Source: Thermoplasmata archaeon (GTDB lineage Archaea; Thermoplasmatota; Thermoplasmata; Sysuiplasmatales; Sysuiplasmataceae). Taken from it: DNA of 64,000 nt. Within the stretch, counting starts at the first letter, position 1. Every line of letters starts with the position of its first letter. Below are positions 29,563-35,671 of the stretch, piece by piece. The stretch is taken from NCBI GenBank assembly GCA_021806165.1, contig JAJZXY010000006.1, forward strand, positions 1-64,000. Reading direction: 5' to 3'. Under the pieces are notes generated by a model. The model was not told the DNA's origin, ran no database searches, and saw nothing but the letters and a program-made list of their open reading frames with translations. Position numbers and translations under genes: made by a program.

Positions 29563-30264
29563 TCAGAAGAGCTCGGCCCCTGAATGCACCACAATTCCGC
29601 TGCCTGTTATGCTGTACGGCCTTATGCGTCTCGAATGGGCCGCCCCCCTCATCTTCACCACGCGTATGGTCAGCTGCTGCTCAGACTCATCGCTGGAGTC
29701 AACAGACCTCAGCAGTATGACGCCGTCTGCGGTATACTCAACCATCCCGTCGCGTGAGGCACCCGGGTTGTTTTCGCTTATCTCAGATGTGAGCAGCGCA
29801 GACGCACCGCTCTCCCTTATGAGCCTGCACAGGGTGAAGAGTCCCCCCCTCTTCTCAGCCGGCGTATCATAGAGCATGGACAACAGGGACACAGAGTCGA
29901 TGACCACTCTGCTTGCCCCGAATTCCCTGATGAAGCCTGGAAGCTCGCTTCTTATCCGCTCTACAGAAGTCTTCGCGTCGGTGGGCTCCAGTCTGACAAG
30001 AGCGAGAGCGCCTTTCGAGGCATGCGCTGCAAGGTCCCAGCCGAATGATGATGCATTCCTTGTCAGGGAGGTTTCATCCTCCTCCAGAGAAATGAAAATG
30101 CACTTCTCCCCCTCCCCCAGCCCTTTCAGGATGAACTGCATCCCGGCAGTGGTCTTGCCCGTTCCGAATGAACCCAGGACAGCCACCACTGAACCGCGCG
30201 GTATTCCTCCTCCGAGCATATCGTCCAGCCCTGAAATGCCTGTCTGCATTGCGCCCTCCATCAT
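29563..30264 (-). CDS. KaiC-like RecA-superfamily ATPase
   Basis: A single KaiC-type RecA domain of 233 residues. Walker A GSFGTGKTT is at 31-39, preceded by TGISGLDDMLGGGIPRGS. Then comes CIFISLEEDETSL, Walker B region SRVVIDSVSLLSML, and the typical GVILLRSV...RVVKMRGAAHSRRIRPYSIT ending. Single-domain KaiC-like proteins are abundant in archaea; roles include signalling and archaellum control, but most are uncharacterised. ATG 30264 overlaps the stop of the second ATPase gene upstream, so the pair is co-translated. Confidence 0.85.
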   Translation of the reverse strand: MMEGAMQTGISGLDDMLGGGIPRGSVVAVLGSFGTGKTTAGMQFILKGLGEGEKCIFISLEEDETSLTRNASSFGWDLAAHASKGALALVRLEPTDAKTSVERIRSELPGFIREFGASRVVIDSVSLLSMLYDTPAEKRGGLFTLCRLIRESGASALLTSEISENNPGASRDGMVEYTADGVILLRSVDSSDESEQQLTIRVVKMRGAAHSRRIRPYSITGSGIVVHSGAELF

Positions 30265-31100
30265 ATCCTCTCCATGTCAATAACAACCAGCCCGCTCTGC
30301 GACGTCAGCGAAGTGGCAAACCTGGCTATCCTCTGTTCATCCAGGTGAGGCATCAGACTCACGAACTTTGCTATGTGCAGGTAGCGCTGCCGCTTGCTGC
30401 TTGTGGTATGCCTGCTCCATTCGAATACCAGAACCCCGTCCACGCTGTCCAGTATCATCTGTTCCTTCCTCTTTTCCAGAATTCCCGAGGTAAGGAGAAG
30501 GTATATCACCCCATTCCAGCGTTTTGCCATCCTCCGCATTCCCCTCAGCATGGAAACCACCTCCATGATGCCCACTGAGTCGTTGACGAGGAGGTCAGTC
30601 AGCGAGTCCACGAACACGACGCTTCCTTCAGCCTTGCTGTCCAGGAAGTCCACAAATGATGTAACGAGGCCGCCTTTCCTCGGTTCTAACAGGCTGCTGC
30701 TCCTTCCGATCCAGGCGGGGGGGACGACAGATTGCTCGAAATATCTCTCTGAAAAGTCGGTGAATTCGACATGCTTCCTGAATGCAGAATGGAAATCATC
30801 GTTGAAGGAAAAGAGGATCTCCTGGAGTATCTCCTCCCTTGGCTTGAAGAATGTGGCATACCGTATCCTTTCAGGGAGGTTACCTTCAGCGGCTGAATCA
30901 CCCATGAGGAATGAAACAGATTCCGGCCTTTCAATGGCCATGGACAGTTTTGCTGCAGAGGTGTATGCAAACTCAACGTACCCGCTCCCGACGTCACCGA
31001 GGAGGAGGACCACCGAACCGGGCGGAAAGCCTCCGCCAATTATCGAATCGAAATCCGAAACTCCTGTCGGTATCCTCCTTGTCCGTGCATCCGATCCCAT
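30261..31100 (-). CDS. RecA-fold HTR-like ATPase homologue with degenerate P-loop
   Basis: A 279-residue RecA-fold protein resembling archaeal HTR-like/GvpD-type proteins: RRIPTGVSDFDSIIGGGFPPGS, FAYTSAAKLS, VVFVDSLTDLLVND and a C-terminal YLHIAKFVSLMPHLDE. The P-loop reads GDVGSGYVE (35-43) and lacks the Walker A lysine. Nonstandard P-loops occur in this family, so it may bind but not hydrolyse ATP, perhaps partnering the intact ATPase encoded next. ATG 31100 is chosen: a TTAATC box lies about 29 bases upstream and homology starts there; ATG 31187 would add 29 residues. Confidence 0.75.
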   Translation of the reverse strand: MGSDARTRRIPTGVSDFDSIIGGGFPPGSVVLLLGDVGSGYVEFAYTSAAKLSMAIERPESVSFLMGDSAAEGNLPERIRYATFFKPREEILQEILFSFNDDFHSAFRKHVEFTDFSERYFEQSVVPPAWIGRSSSLLEPRKGGLVTSFVDFLDSKAEGSVVFVDSLTDLLVNDSVGIMEVVSMLRGMRRMAKRWNGVIYLLLTSGILEKRKEQMILDSVDGVLVFEWSRHTTSSKRQRYLHIAKFVSLMPHLDEQRIARFATSLTSQSGLVVIDMERI

Positions 31101-31250
31101 GATCGCTCCATATCCTTCTGGCAGGATTAATCTTTGTCTCCCTTTTGAAAACCCTTTGAAAATCATTTGCGGAAACTGGATCGCCATCTTTATTAGACGC
31201 CCTTGCGACTTTTGTTTGCCACAATATCAAACTGAATAGCGGAGGAGCGA

Positions 31251-31277
31251 ATGAAGAATTACGGTGAGTTCTGTTGA
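31251..31277 (+). CDS. 8-codon leader ORF upstream of the giant repeat protein
   Basis: ATG 31251 follows a strong GGAGG (31241-31245) and opens the frame MKNYGEFC, whose TGA (31275-31277) overlaps the TTG start of the 1465-residue gene (31274-31276). The only good ribosome site here belongs to this mini-frame, so the large gene is probably reached by translational coupling. A missed frameshift joining the two is the alternative. Confidence 0.5.
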   Translation: MKNYGEFC

Positions 31278-34200
31278 CTGGGAACTACTTCGGCAGCATG
31301 AAACTCGGCAAGCAGCTTGCCGAAAAGGCGCGTGAAGTTGCCCAGGAGAAGGAGGAGGCTGCCGCAAGGCTCGAGGAGCTAGACAGGCTCATGTCTCTCG
31401 CCGCAATACTGGGCCTCTCGCCTGAAGCTGCCTCCAGGGCCAGATCACAGGCAGGGAACCAGTACGAGACAAGGGAGTACAGGGAGTGCATTGCAACCTG
31501 CGCCGCCGCATATGATGCACTCAAGTCAGACATAGTTTCAATGTTCACCAAGAGGATGGAATCGACAACAGGCATGATGCAGTTCCTGTCCAGGAGGGGG
31601 TCGGATACAACTTCCCTGCAGGAGGCGCTCGAGAATGTCCGCGCACTGCTCGCCTCCGAGAAATTCGAGGACGCGGAGTCGTCTCTCACCTCCATATGGC
31701 AGAAGGAGGAAAAGACGCTGGCTGAAATATTCTCCCACGAGTTTTCAGCTGTGCAGCAGGCACTGATGGAGGCAAAGATGCTCTGCGGCAACATAGACGG
31801 CGTGGAGGGTGCGCTGTCGGATGCAAGAAATGAAGTCACAGCCAACAATGTGGAGAATGCATTCAGACTTCTGGAGCATGCCGGCGGTCTCATCGCAAGG
31901 CAGATCAGGCAGAAGGTGGATGAAGAGCTGAAACTGCTTTCAAGGAAGGTCGAAATTTCAAAGCTCTTCGGCCTGGGCGTTGCCCCCTACAGGGAGAAGA
32001 TCGAGAGGATTGGGTCACAGCCGCAGGATCAGCGCCTCGGTGAAATGCAGCAGATGCTCGACAGCCTGAATATGGAGCTGGACAGGAAACTGAGACGTGC
32101 ATTCGAGATAAGGCTGAAGACAATTCGCTCTGACCTTTCGGACAGGACGCTAATGACGGGCGTCGTCTCATCTGCCTCATCTGCCGTTGCAGGTATAGAG
32201 TCGCAGCTCACCGCAGGAGACTATGATGCCGCCTACACCTCCCTGACAGACCTTGAGTCAAGGCTGGAGAAGGCAAAGTACGATCACATTGCGCGGATAC
32301 TGCTGAATGGGAAGAAGTACATCACCATGGCGCTCAAGAGCGGTATAGACCTCGCTCCTGTGAACGAGCACCTGAACGAAGTCAGGGAGCTCATGAAGCG
32401 CAGGCGCTTCCACGAAGCTATCGCCGCAGCCGAGAAGGCGAACGACGAGGCTATGCGTCTTTCGAGTCTCACATCGGATGCAGACGAGGCAATGCAGAGA
32501 CTGGAGGGAGAGTTCCACGCCCTTGTTTCTCTTGTTTCGAATTCAGTGGAGATCAGCATCAGGTATGCCGAGGCAAAGAGAAAGTTCGAATCACGCGATC
32601 TGGCTGGCTTCCTTGCTGACTCAGGACCGCTGAAGAAGGATATGGACGCGCTGCTGGAGAATTTCGCTACTGGGCAGATTGACGCGCTCGACAGGAGCAT
32701 AGGAGCCCTTGAATACCTGGGCGCTGAAACTCTGGACATGAACAGGCGCATTGGCGCGGCCGTCTCACTTGTAAAGAACGGCGAATATGCCCGCTCCCTT
32801 GAAATGACAACCGCCCTGGAAAAGGATGTCGATGTAAAACTGCTGGAGCTTGACCAGTCCTGGATGCTGCGGGCCGGCGGTGCAGTGGACTCCAGCACAG
32901 GTCTACTCAAGGAGAGGCTTGAAAAACTCATGGAGACGGTGCGCTCGCTGGATGCAAGGAAGGAGAGTTACCGTGCCGCATCCGTCGCGAAGGACGTTGT
33001 GGACTGGGCATCAAACGGAAATGTATTCAGAGTTCGCTCACTGATACAGCGCACTCGCAGGCTGCTAAGCGTCGTCGATGAGGTCAGCAGTTCATCAGCC
33101 GTAAACATGCTCGAGGCAGCTGAGCGGAATGCGGAGATGGACACTGAGTCTGCGCTGAATACCGCGGGCGAGGCACACGACATTGTCTACAGCCTTCTCA
33201 ATGATTATTTCGTGAGGGAGATGTCCTCTCTGATGGACATGGTCTCCACATGCAGGAGAAAGAGGGTGGAGATTGGTTATGGTTACACACTTATCAGCAG
33301 GTCAAGGGCAGCCCTCAAGTTCGAGGATTTCGAGGCTGCAGCGAGGATGGCCTCCCTGGCAAGGGAGGAAATACAGAACAAGCTGAAGCAGGTTGAGGCA
33401 ATTGAAGCCGACCTGGTCAAGGCTGAGAAGCTTTTAGCTGAGGCCAGGAAGGGTAATGCCGGCACGCTCGAAATGCAGAAGCTCATCTCGGGCGTAAAGG
33501 CGTCGCTGAAGCGTTATGATTATTCGCAGGCAAAGAAGGAGATATCACAGGTCCTGCTGCTGGAGGAGAGGAGCATGGCTTCCAGTCTTGCGGCCAAGGA
33601 GATCATTGCAGTAAAGGGGGTGCTCGCCGTTGCCGCAGAGGTCGGCATAGCCGACCCCGACCTGGAAGCAAGAAAGGAGCAGATTCTTGGCCTGATGCGC
33701 GAACGCAACCATTACGACGCCCTGATTACCGCCCGCTCACTAATGAAGGATGCTTCTGAAGCTGTAACATCAAGACTGACGGAGATGGTCAATGAGACGG
33801 CGGCAAGGAGCGCCAAGGCTGAGATAGACGGGCTGGACGTAAACGTTGTGGAGTCAAGGCTGGAAAAGGCACGCTCCCTCATCTCCTCGGGCCAGCTGGA
33901 GCAGTCCCTCAGCAGTATAAGACTTGCTGGAAGTGAGCTCGAACTTGTATTGAACTCCGTCAGCGAAGCAATTACCTCCATAGAGAAGGCAGACGCGATC
34001 GTCATCAAGCTCGACGAGCTGAACATGCTGGAGGCAGGAACATTCAACCTGCTTAAACAGGCAAAGAACCTGTTGAAGAATGACCAGCACCTCCTAGCCC
34101 TCGAGACAGCCAAGAAGTGCCTTGAAACATGTTCGGAAAGGCTCAAGACAAAGGGCCCCCAGCTCCTTCAGGAGTACACCGAGCAGATTTATGCAAGCGT

Positions 34201-35671
34201 GGGCAATGACGGGATGGATGGCATTTCGGAGGAGGTCAACGGCGCTGCGGCCCAGGTTGCCTCAGGCTCCCTGGATGCGTCCGACTCACTCATAACACTC
34301 AAAAGCATGGCTGAAAGGCTCGCACTCCAGAAGGAGATGGCCGAGAGGACATACGATGTGCTGAAGAAGAGGGCAGCCGCCCTGCTCCAAGGCGGCATCT
34401 CATCCGAAAGACTCGACGGGGACATATCCCAGGTCGGCAGCCTTCTGGATGCCAGGAATTTCAAGGCGGTCATAGAGAAGGGCATTGCTGTTGAACAGCT
34501 GATGGAGGACCTGTCCAAGGGAAGCGAGAGGGCCAGGCAGAAGCTCACTGCCCTTGAGGACAAGATTGCCTCCTACGCCGAGCTGGGCATCAATATGGAT
34601 GCCTGCAGGGCAAAGGCCGCTGAAGCAGCCGAACTGATTTCATCAGGCAACTTCACTGAGAGCACTGGTCGTATGCAGGAATGCGAATCCGAGGCAGAGA
34701 GGATACTGCACCAGGCCTGCATCTCCAAGATGGCTGCGGCCGAATCGGCATCGGAGGTCGCCTCAAGACTCGGCATCTCAGAAAGGGACGGCACCACCCC
34801 CGAGTACAGGGAGATGATAGAGTCTGGAGACGCTCCCGGTGCTTTCGCTGTTGCAGCAAGGAAGCTCGAGGAAATATCACCTCTGGTGGCAAGCGCCCTC
34901 AGGGACAGGTTTGAAAATGCTGTCAATATAGACGGCCTGTCACAGAGTTTCACCGCAGGAATGAGAAATGAATTCGAGGAGCTGATGGAGTCTCAGCGTT
35001 ACTCCGAATCTCTCGACTTCACAGAGAAGCTGGAAAGGGATATGAAGTCAAAGTCTGCGATGCTCGCAGAGATGGACGGCCTCTCCAGGCAGTTTTCCGA
35101 CGTCGCCGGTGATCTGCGCAGGACAGGCATAAACATCAGGACCTTCGACATGAGATACGGCGCTATAACAATGGAGCTCTCGGACCAGAGCCTTGAGGAG
35201 ATGAGGAAGCTGGTCGACGAGATGAAGAAGCTCAAGTCGGAATACTCCCCCAGGCTGACCATTGGCTGCTCCGGCAGCCGATGGGGCCCTCAGCTGACAG
35301 TTACCAACGCAGGAAGGGTTGTCGCTCTGAGCGCATCAGTCAGCATCAAGGGCGAGGCACTGACGAAAGTGGAGGCGCTTGGCAACCTGAAACCGGGGGA
35401 GAGCAGGACGATGAATCTGCCCGGAACGGTACGCGGAGAGATCGTTGTGAACGCAGTGGCCTCAAGCCCTGTTGACAACGGCAATTTCTCCACGACGCTC
35501 ACATTCCACCTCGATGGAAGCTCAATCACGCCGCTTGTATTTTGCCCTGCATGCAGGGGGAAGATCAGGAGTGGCGGCAGGAGTTACACATGCGCATGCG
35601 GCAGGACCTACCATGAGCAGTGCGCCCGCCGCTCATCCGCGTGTGAATGCGGCAAGCCAATCAGCATGTGA
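31274..35671 (+). CDS. Giant helical-repeat protein with beta domain and C-terminal RING-like zinc finger
   Basis: A 1465-residue protein not recognised as a named family. From residue 1 to about 1335 it is helical, with about 18 copies of a loose unit about 75 residues apart, each centred on a helix-turn-helix such as LLASEKFEDAESSL, LTAGDYDAAYTSL, LMKRRRFHEAIAAA, LKRYDYSQAKKEI, LLKNDQHLLALETA and LISSGNFTESTGRM. These look TPR-like or spectrin-like. A beta-sandwich (PRLTIGCSGSRWGPQLTVTN...LKPGESRTMNL) follows, then a treble-clef finger with CPAC, CACG, YHEQC and CECG. No signal peptide or membrane helix: a cytoplasmic scaffold is likely. TTG 31274 or ATG 31298 may start it. It is divergent from the two RecA-fold ATPase genes. 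Confidence 0.8.
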   Translation: MTGNYFGSMKLGKQLAEKAREVAQEKEEAAARLEELDRLMSLAAILGLSPEAASRARSQAGNQYETREYRECIATCAAAYDALKSDIVSMFTKRMESTTGMMQFLSRRGSDTTSLQEALENVRALLASEKFEDAESSLTSIWQKEEKTLAEIFSHEFSAVQQALMEAKMLCGNIDGVEGALSDARNEVTANNVENAFRLLEHAGGLIARQIRQKVDEELKLLSRKVEISKLFGLGVAPYREKIERIGSQPQDQRLGEMQQMLDSLNMELDRKLRRAFEIRLKTIRSDLSDRTLMTGVVSSASSAVAGIESQLTAGDYDAAYTSLTDLESRLEKAKYDHIARILLNGKKYITMALKSGIDLAPVNEHLNEVRELMKRRRFHEAIAAAEKANDEAMRLSSLTSDADEAMQRLEGEFHALVSLVSNSVEISIRYAEAKRKFESRDLAGFLADSGPLKKDMDALLENFATGQIDALDRSIGALEYLGAETLDMNRRIGAAVSLVKNGEYARSLEMTTALEKDVDVKLLELDQSWMLRAGGAVDSSTGLLKERLEKLMETVRSLDARKESYRAASVAKDVVDWASNGNVFRVRSLIQRTRRLLSVVDEVSSSSAVNMLEAAERNAEMDTESALNTAGEAHDIVYSLLNDYFVREMSSLMDMVSTCRRKRVEIGYGYTLISRSRAALKFEDFEAAARMASLAREEIQNKLKQVEAIEADLVKAEKLLAEARKGNAGTLEMQKLISGVKASLKRYDYSQAKKEISQVLLLEERSMASSLAAKEIIAVKGVLAVAAEVGIADPDLEARKEQILGLMRERNHYDALITARSLMKDASEAVTSRLTEMVNETAARSAKAEIDGLDVNVVESRLEKARSLISSGQLEQSLSSIRLAGSELELVLNSVSEAITSIEKADAIVIKLDELNMLEAGTFNLLKQAKNLLKNDQHLLALETAKKCLETCSERLKTKGPQLLQEYTEQIYASVGNDGMDGISEEVNGAAAQVASGSLDASDSLITLKSMAERLALQKEMAERTYDVLKKRAAALLQGGISSERLDGDISQVGSLLDARNFKAVIEKGIAVEQLMEDLSKGSERARQKLTALEDKIASYAELGINMDACRAKAAEAAELISSGNFTESTGRMQECESEAERILHQACISKMAAAESASEVASRLGISERDGTTPEYREMIESGDAPGAFAVAARKLEEISPLVASALRDRFENAVNIDGLSQSFTAGMRNEFEELMESQRYSESLDFTEKLERDMKSKSAMLAEMDGLSRQFSDVAGDLRRTGINIRTFDMRYGAITMELSDQSLEEMRKLVDEMKKLKSEYSPRLTIGCSGSRWGPQLTVTNAGRVVALSASVSIKGEALTKVEALGNLKPGESRTMNLPGTVRGEIVVNAVASSPVDNGNFSTTLTFHLDGSSITPLVFCPACRGKIRSGGRSYTCACGRTYHEQCARRSSACECGKPISM

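Follow-up and report, generated by a model that had tools for sequence, protein, structure and literature searches.

The window analysed here (64,000 nucleotides of contig JAJZXY010000006.1 from a Thermoplasmata archaeon of the family Sysuiplasmataceae) carries on its forward strand, at positions 31274..35671, an uninterrupted reading frame that begins with TTG and encodes a giant protein of 1465 amino acids, composed of a predicted helical rod, a beta-sandwich and a C-terminal finger. Conservation at the N terminus (Y5, L11, K13, Q14 and L15, i.e. the KQL motif of residues 13-15, and, within the family, TGNYFG) sets in before the first ATG (M9). Since the conserved protein sequence extends upstream of M9, the TTG/GTG start is the right one. 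The frame is a real ORF, as proposed in the initial annotation. A frameshift artefact at the start was ruled out, because the N-terminal motif stays in frame up to the TTG/GTG codon in all close relatives. In one homologous locus (L101, 7805 onward; G352:C1:1683807-1688321), the giant frame is broken by a single in-frame TGA and was read as two pieces.

On the opposite strand, two divergent genes precede the giant gene: one encoding a degenerate KaiC/ArlH-like ATPase (30261..31187, minus strand) and one encoding a KaiC-domain protein (29563..30264, minus strand; TIGR03880). The two genes (29563-31187) overlap by 4 nt. The pair, divergent in the window, is located upstream of the giant gene and co-directional with it in locus L040, and KaiC-like pairs occur near or beside the giant gene in several families.

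Between these divergent units lies a GGAGG sequence resembling a ribosome-binding site (31241..31245, plus strand), placed 5 nt before ATG31251 of an 8-codon ORF (31251..31277, plus strand; MKNYGEFC), whose stop codon, TGA31277, overlaps the TTG start of the giant gene. The initial annotation saw in this leader a device for coupled translation. The leader is indeed present in the window, but it is not conserved: no ATG leader was found in two genomes of the same genus (L031 and L032), which retain only an AGGAG in the corresponding position, 27 nt upstream of the start. In other members of the family, unrelated frames occupy the leader position, with a weak ribosome-binding site or none, and in L040 a separate GGAGAGG stands directly before the TTG (a leaderless SD start). 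The TTGA/GTGA overlap arises because the second codon begins with A (Thr or Ser), of which it is a by-product. Judged from these sequence comparisons, leader-coupled translation is not a conserved feature and, because the same-genus orthologues lack the leader, it is unsupported as a general trait. The proposal that MKNYGEFC regulates the giant gene by translational coupling draws on the position of the GGAGG and on the stop-start overlap; given the relatives described above, we regard it as improbable. As a proposal about expression, it has no bearing on what the protein does.

The protein was modelled with AlphaFold2 in two overlapping halves, comprising residues 1-800 (24 sequences) and 700-1465 (23 sequences). 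The mean pLDDT values were 85.0 and 85.4, respectively; with a pTM of 0.36-0.38, the models leave it uncertain how the rod is shaped as a whole. The rod, the beta-sandwich and the finger named in the initial annotation were all recovered in the models. The rod (residues 5-1324; 31286..35245, plus strand), delimited from the models and from its period, consists of units built of a helix of about 15 residues, a three-residue turn and a helix of about 40 residues. The helical character is as first described, and the number of units is corrected from about 18 to 21, the period averaging 61.9 residues. Foldseek searches with residues 1-800 and 700-1465 yielded no PDB fold match with E<0.001; spectrin, vinculin and HEAT or TPR superhelices were thus rejected as known folds for the rod. 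Its unit nevertheless resembles TPR in having a short helix, a G-x-Y/F turn and a following helix that begins like TPR helix B (the TPR_2/ANAPC3 matches of the rod are weak), and, by our own comparison, it resembles spectrin in having long helices shared by neighbouring units. It differs from both repeats in its 62-residue period and its helices of about 40 residues. No strongly hydrophobic 19-residue stretch was detected in the window protein (maximum 1.57), and the giant is probably a cytoplasmic rod-shaped scaffold.

The rod is followed by an Ig/CARDB-like beta-sandwich (residues 1328-1420; 35255..35533, plus strand). CARDB (PF07705) is matched by the sandwich of 5 of 20 family members, and the match of the homologue L163 lies above the cut-off (1.1e-5, 26.0 bits vs 22.7); the window protein gave no such match. 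The PF1109 structures of this fold (2kl6, 3idu) were among the Foldseek matches, with E values of only 0.06-0.09. The folds are similar; unlike CARDB, the sandwich described here is part of a cytoplasmic protein and stands beside a zinc finger.

The C-terminal module (residues 1424-1460; 35543..35653, plus strand) is a C4HC3 binuclear treble-clef finger of Prok-RING-like type, with the pattern C-x2-C-x12-C-x-C-x4-H-x2-C-x6-C-x-C. Its eight ligands (C1424, C1427, C1440, C1442, H1447, C1450, C1457 and C1459) are each at least 90% conserved among 20 homologues, and the sequence and predicted fold agree with the eight-ligand, binuclear, cross-brace treble clef (with a putative zinc site) expected of a RING-type E3 ligase. 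The treble-clef finger first noticed in the sequence is therefore borne out, both by its ligands and by the model. In the clade of the window protein, the last knuckle reads CxC and lacks the proline of the more common CPxC. The finger belongs to a single homogeneous finger family. It matches Prok-RING_1 (PF14446) in 11 of 20 members (best E 9.6e-10), and several homologues score above the cut-off; the finger of the window protein itself gives E 0.69 and 10.4 bits, against a cut-off of 29.1. The Prok-RING_1 model shares the finger and does not describe its context of rod and sandwich.

The same finger also occurs in other settings. It forms the C terminus of an oligopeptide-type ABC transporter ATPase (L114, 6319-7662; L117, 4893-6236) and of surface-type proteins containing a signal-like N terminus, Ig/PKD-like repeats and a hydrophobic segment (L190, 3956-6433; L195, 2916-5321). 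In six loci (L040, L042, L047, L048, L074 and L094), the finger is followed by a C-terminal tail, K-K/R-x-V-A-L-K/R-[IF], which is found even behind a Pro-rich insert. This recurrent tail may possibly be a binding motif.

Of 60 relatives, 38 have a homologue of the giant; identity is 61% among members of the genus, falls to about 42% at family level and lies at 16-19% over the class as a whole. When a profile was built from 20 homologues, it matched 234 of the 349 Thermoplasmata genomes of the class set (each at least 80% complete). Most of the matching frames measure about 1400-1600 aa; for most of family f6, only the finger is matched. Twenty sequences, from proteins of about 1450-1607 aa, align in only 1639-1654 columns. 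So few columns imply that the repeats are collinear and have not been freely gained and lost inside the class. Longer matching frames (1755-3465 aa) are present in other classes of the phylum, and named relatives come only from Thermoplasmatota (including Candidatus Sysuiplasma superficiale) or from unplaced Euryarchaeota. In keeping with the initial annotation, which recognised no family, the window protein has no match in NCBIfam and none above the cut-off in Pfam; when PDB sequences were searched with the profile, nothing beyond weak TPR and RING/C1 matches emerged, and assignment to a known family on this basis was rejected. The genome of the window also encodes a 540-aa frame (L164, 5949-7568; G000:C22) that joins zinc ribbons at its N terminus to a few of the helical units that make up the rod, and a similar protein is found in L174.

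To probe the idea of a ligase role for the finger, E2 enzymes (PF00179) were searched for in 100 genomes and 14 control genomes. Matches were obtained in 49 of the 100, including the genome of the window, and in 0 of the 14 controls. In the window's own genome, the E2 gene is part of an E1-Ubl-E2-JAMM operon (G000:C16; L131, 4841-6827), located outside the window and on a different contig from the giant gene. It encodes an E1 of the ThiF type (PF00899, 3.5e-47), a ubiquitin-like modifier (Ubl) ending in DPEGG, an E2 with an HPN motif and a catalytic Cys, which probably starts at a CTG overlapping the Ubl stop codon, and a JAMM protease matching PF14464/PF01398; a RING protein was not observed among its products. 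The giant therefore shares its genome with a cognate E1, E2 and modifier. E2 proteins of this one family are present in about a third of the 349 Thermoplasmata genomes, and in every locus read closely outside family f7 the gene is situated in an E1-Ubl-E2-JAMM operon. Searches of the open-licence literature turned up no description of the operon for Thermoplasmata.

Physical linkage of the giant gene to this system was observed in two families. In both genomes analysed from f39, another family of the phylum (L162 and L163, representing two genera), the gene order is E1-GIANT-Ubl-E2-JAMM, with all genes co-directional and the start of the giant gene overlapping the E1 stop codon (GTGA/ATGA). 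The f39 giants comprise 3155 and 3183 aa and are the only full-length head match there (E 1e-120). In f7, a Ubl-E2 fusion gene is arranged head-to-head with the giant gene in five genomes, G013, G025, G043, G057 and G364 (L074, 7408-8094; L148, 6330-7007; L149, 5719-6483; L153, 11842-12504; L152, 635-1300); in a further genome, G060, the contig ends just past the fusion gene. The fusion protein has an N-terminal Ubl-like domain and carries K, R, H or S instead of Cys at the catalytic position, i.e. its E2 part is inactivated. The queH gene follows the giant gene in several of the f7 genomes with a fusion. Genetic linkage to E1, E2 or Ubl was seen in f39 and, with an inactivated E2, in f7; it is absent from the genome of the window and from most others. 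In family f49 (L178), a different finger protein, whose finger is preceded by a hydrophobic segment, is encoded directly upstream of E1-Ubl-E2-JAMM.

At the level of whole genomes, the finger (on any protein) and E2 tend to occur together: a finger was found in 115 of the 118 E2-positive genomes of the class and in 53 of the 231 E2-negative ones (a comparison for which the Fisher test ignores relatedness). The three E2-positive exceptions (G164, G217 and G241) are incomplete genomes (81-87%). In family f6, both are present in 42 genomes, E2 only in 2, the finger only in 1, and neither in 34 (3 discordant cases; here too the test ignores relatedness). The finger of the giant itself does not behave in this manner. 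The expectation that it would be confined to genomes with E2 was contradicted by about ten families in which it is kept without a detectable E2 (f2, f4, f12, f13, f29-f31 and others). Conversely, in the E2-positive families f20, f25, f26 and f28 the giant lacks the finger, which these genomes carry on frames of roughly 240-310 aa. The idea that the giant's finger tracks E2 was rejected, with four changes on the protein tree and no correlation; the tree labels were set at family level from the last 75 residues only, and f11, f16 and f22 were scored as finger-less despite a finger before a Pro-rich tail. A corrected search placed losses of the finger from the giant in f9, in f20/f25/f26/f28 and in f21 (G047).

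The six small finger proteins that we read (from f6, f20 and f28 relatives) contain zinc ribbons behind the finger and, in several cases, a hydrophobic N-terminal segment. Such frames (174-287 aa, with hydrophobic N-terminal segment, finger and zinc ribbons) were noted in the E2-positive genomes of L165, L166 and L175 (f6) and of L168-L170 (f20). It is possible that the small finger proteins of f6 and f20 are alternative E3 candidates.

The retention of the rod in finger-less giants (f9, f20, f25, f26 and f28), together with its collinear, nearly gap-free length at only about 17-20% identity between families, is what might be expected of a general cytoplasmic rod, i.e. a spacer of spectrin-like type or an element of a cytoskeleton, anchored by its head to a partner. 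The placement of the giant within the ubiquitin-type loci of f39 and f7 would then reflect lineage-specific recruitment. However, two separate links to the ubiquitin-type system and the association of E2 with the finger exceed what recruitment in one lineage would produce, and we consider this explanation improbable.

Other gene contexts point in a different direction. In one clade (f14, f18, f21 and f29-f31), the giant gene follows smc-scpA-scpB co-directionally, an arrangement kept through deep divergence, and in another clade it is accompanied by lonB, hel308, cgi121, KaiC-like genes and hutH. On these contexts, the giant may have a chromosome-related role. The rod would then be a chromosome or condensin scaffold working with Smc-ScpA(B), and the finger would do no more than cap it, structurally or by binding protein, with no connection to ubiquitin-type tagging, which would accord with the persistence of the finger in the E2-less genomes of the smc clade. 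Yet on the tree the smc-scpA-scpB adjacency arose only once, for which reason we have demoted an SMC partnership from main explanation to rival; hutH is kept beside the giant almost as often, and in the genome of the window smc-scpA-scpB resides on a different contig from the giant gene. Moreover, the E1-GIANT-Ubl-E2-JAMM operon would be left unexplained, and a condensin scaffold of this kind appears unlikely.

We favour a ligase or RING-like reading, because of the E1-Ubl-E2-JAMM operon in the giant's own genome, the operon membership in f39 and the Ubl-E2 neighbour in f7. On this genomic context, we estimate at roughly one half the probability that the giant is a cytoplasmic RING-type, E3-like scaffold of an archaeal ubiquitin-like conjugation system. 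A cytoplasmic scaffold with a RING-like role had already been suggested in the initial annotation; the suggestion gains from the gene context and from the lack of a strongly hydrophobic stretch, and is weakened by the occurrence of the finger in E2-less genomes. The giant plausibly works like a RING scaffold, and as an E3 ligase it is a candidate member. In the mechanism that we propose, the finger would serve as an E3-type module recruiting the Ubl-charged E2, and the rod and sandwich would bind substrates or large assemblies and hold them in position. The targets would be tagged with Ubl, and the JAMM protease would subsequently remove the tag. As the most speculative step, the substrates might function in chromosome maintenance, as hinted by the smc-scpA-scpB, hel308 and KaiC-like ATPase neighbours in several families.

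Archaeal cascades comprising E1, E2 and RING proteins have been described mainly from Aigarchaeota and Asgard archaea (PMC5654768), and a survey of a few other archaeal genomes lists toolkits of this kind for three archaeal groups, one marine group II genome among them (PMC4327156). The closest known system is that of Candidatus Caldiarchaeum subterraneum, in which an E1/E2/small-RING (srfp) ubiquitylation cascade is accompanied by an Rpn11/JAMM protease (PMC5654768). Common to both is an operon encoding a ubiquitin-like modifier and E1-like and E2-like proteins, with a RING-type finger protein and a JAMM protease alongside. The RING protein of Caldiarchaeum is small, whereas the finger described here stands at the end of a rod of 1465 aa, which in f39 reaches about 3200 aa; in addition, the giant gene of the window is not part of the operon, and its finger has the ligand order C4HC3.

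The giant rod-and-finger scaffold, for which no family is recognised, is the most plausible E3-type partner of the Thermoplasmata E2. A more specific picture, in which a Thermoplasmatota ubiquitin-like system has as its E3-type component a rod scaffold of giant size (from 1465 aa up to about 3200 aa) and perhaps tags machinery of the Smc-ScpAB type, is offered only tentatively. If the finger engages E2, the giant would show how substrate choice is organised in a prokaryotic ubiquitin system, and the small finger proteins of the E2-positive families f6, f20 and f28 provide a natural comparison with it. If the giant scaffold is indeed an E3-type component, very large RING scaffolds would occur outside eukaryotes too.
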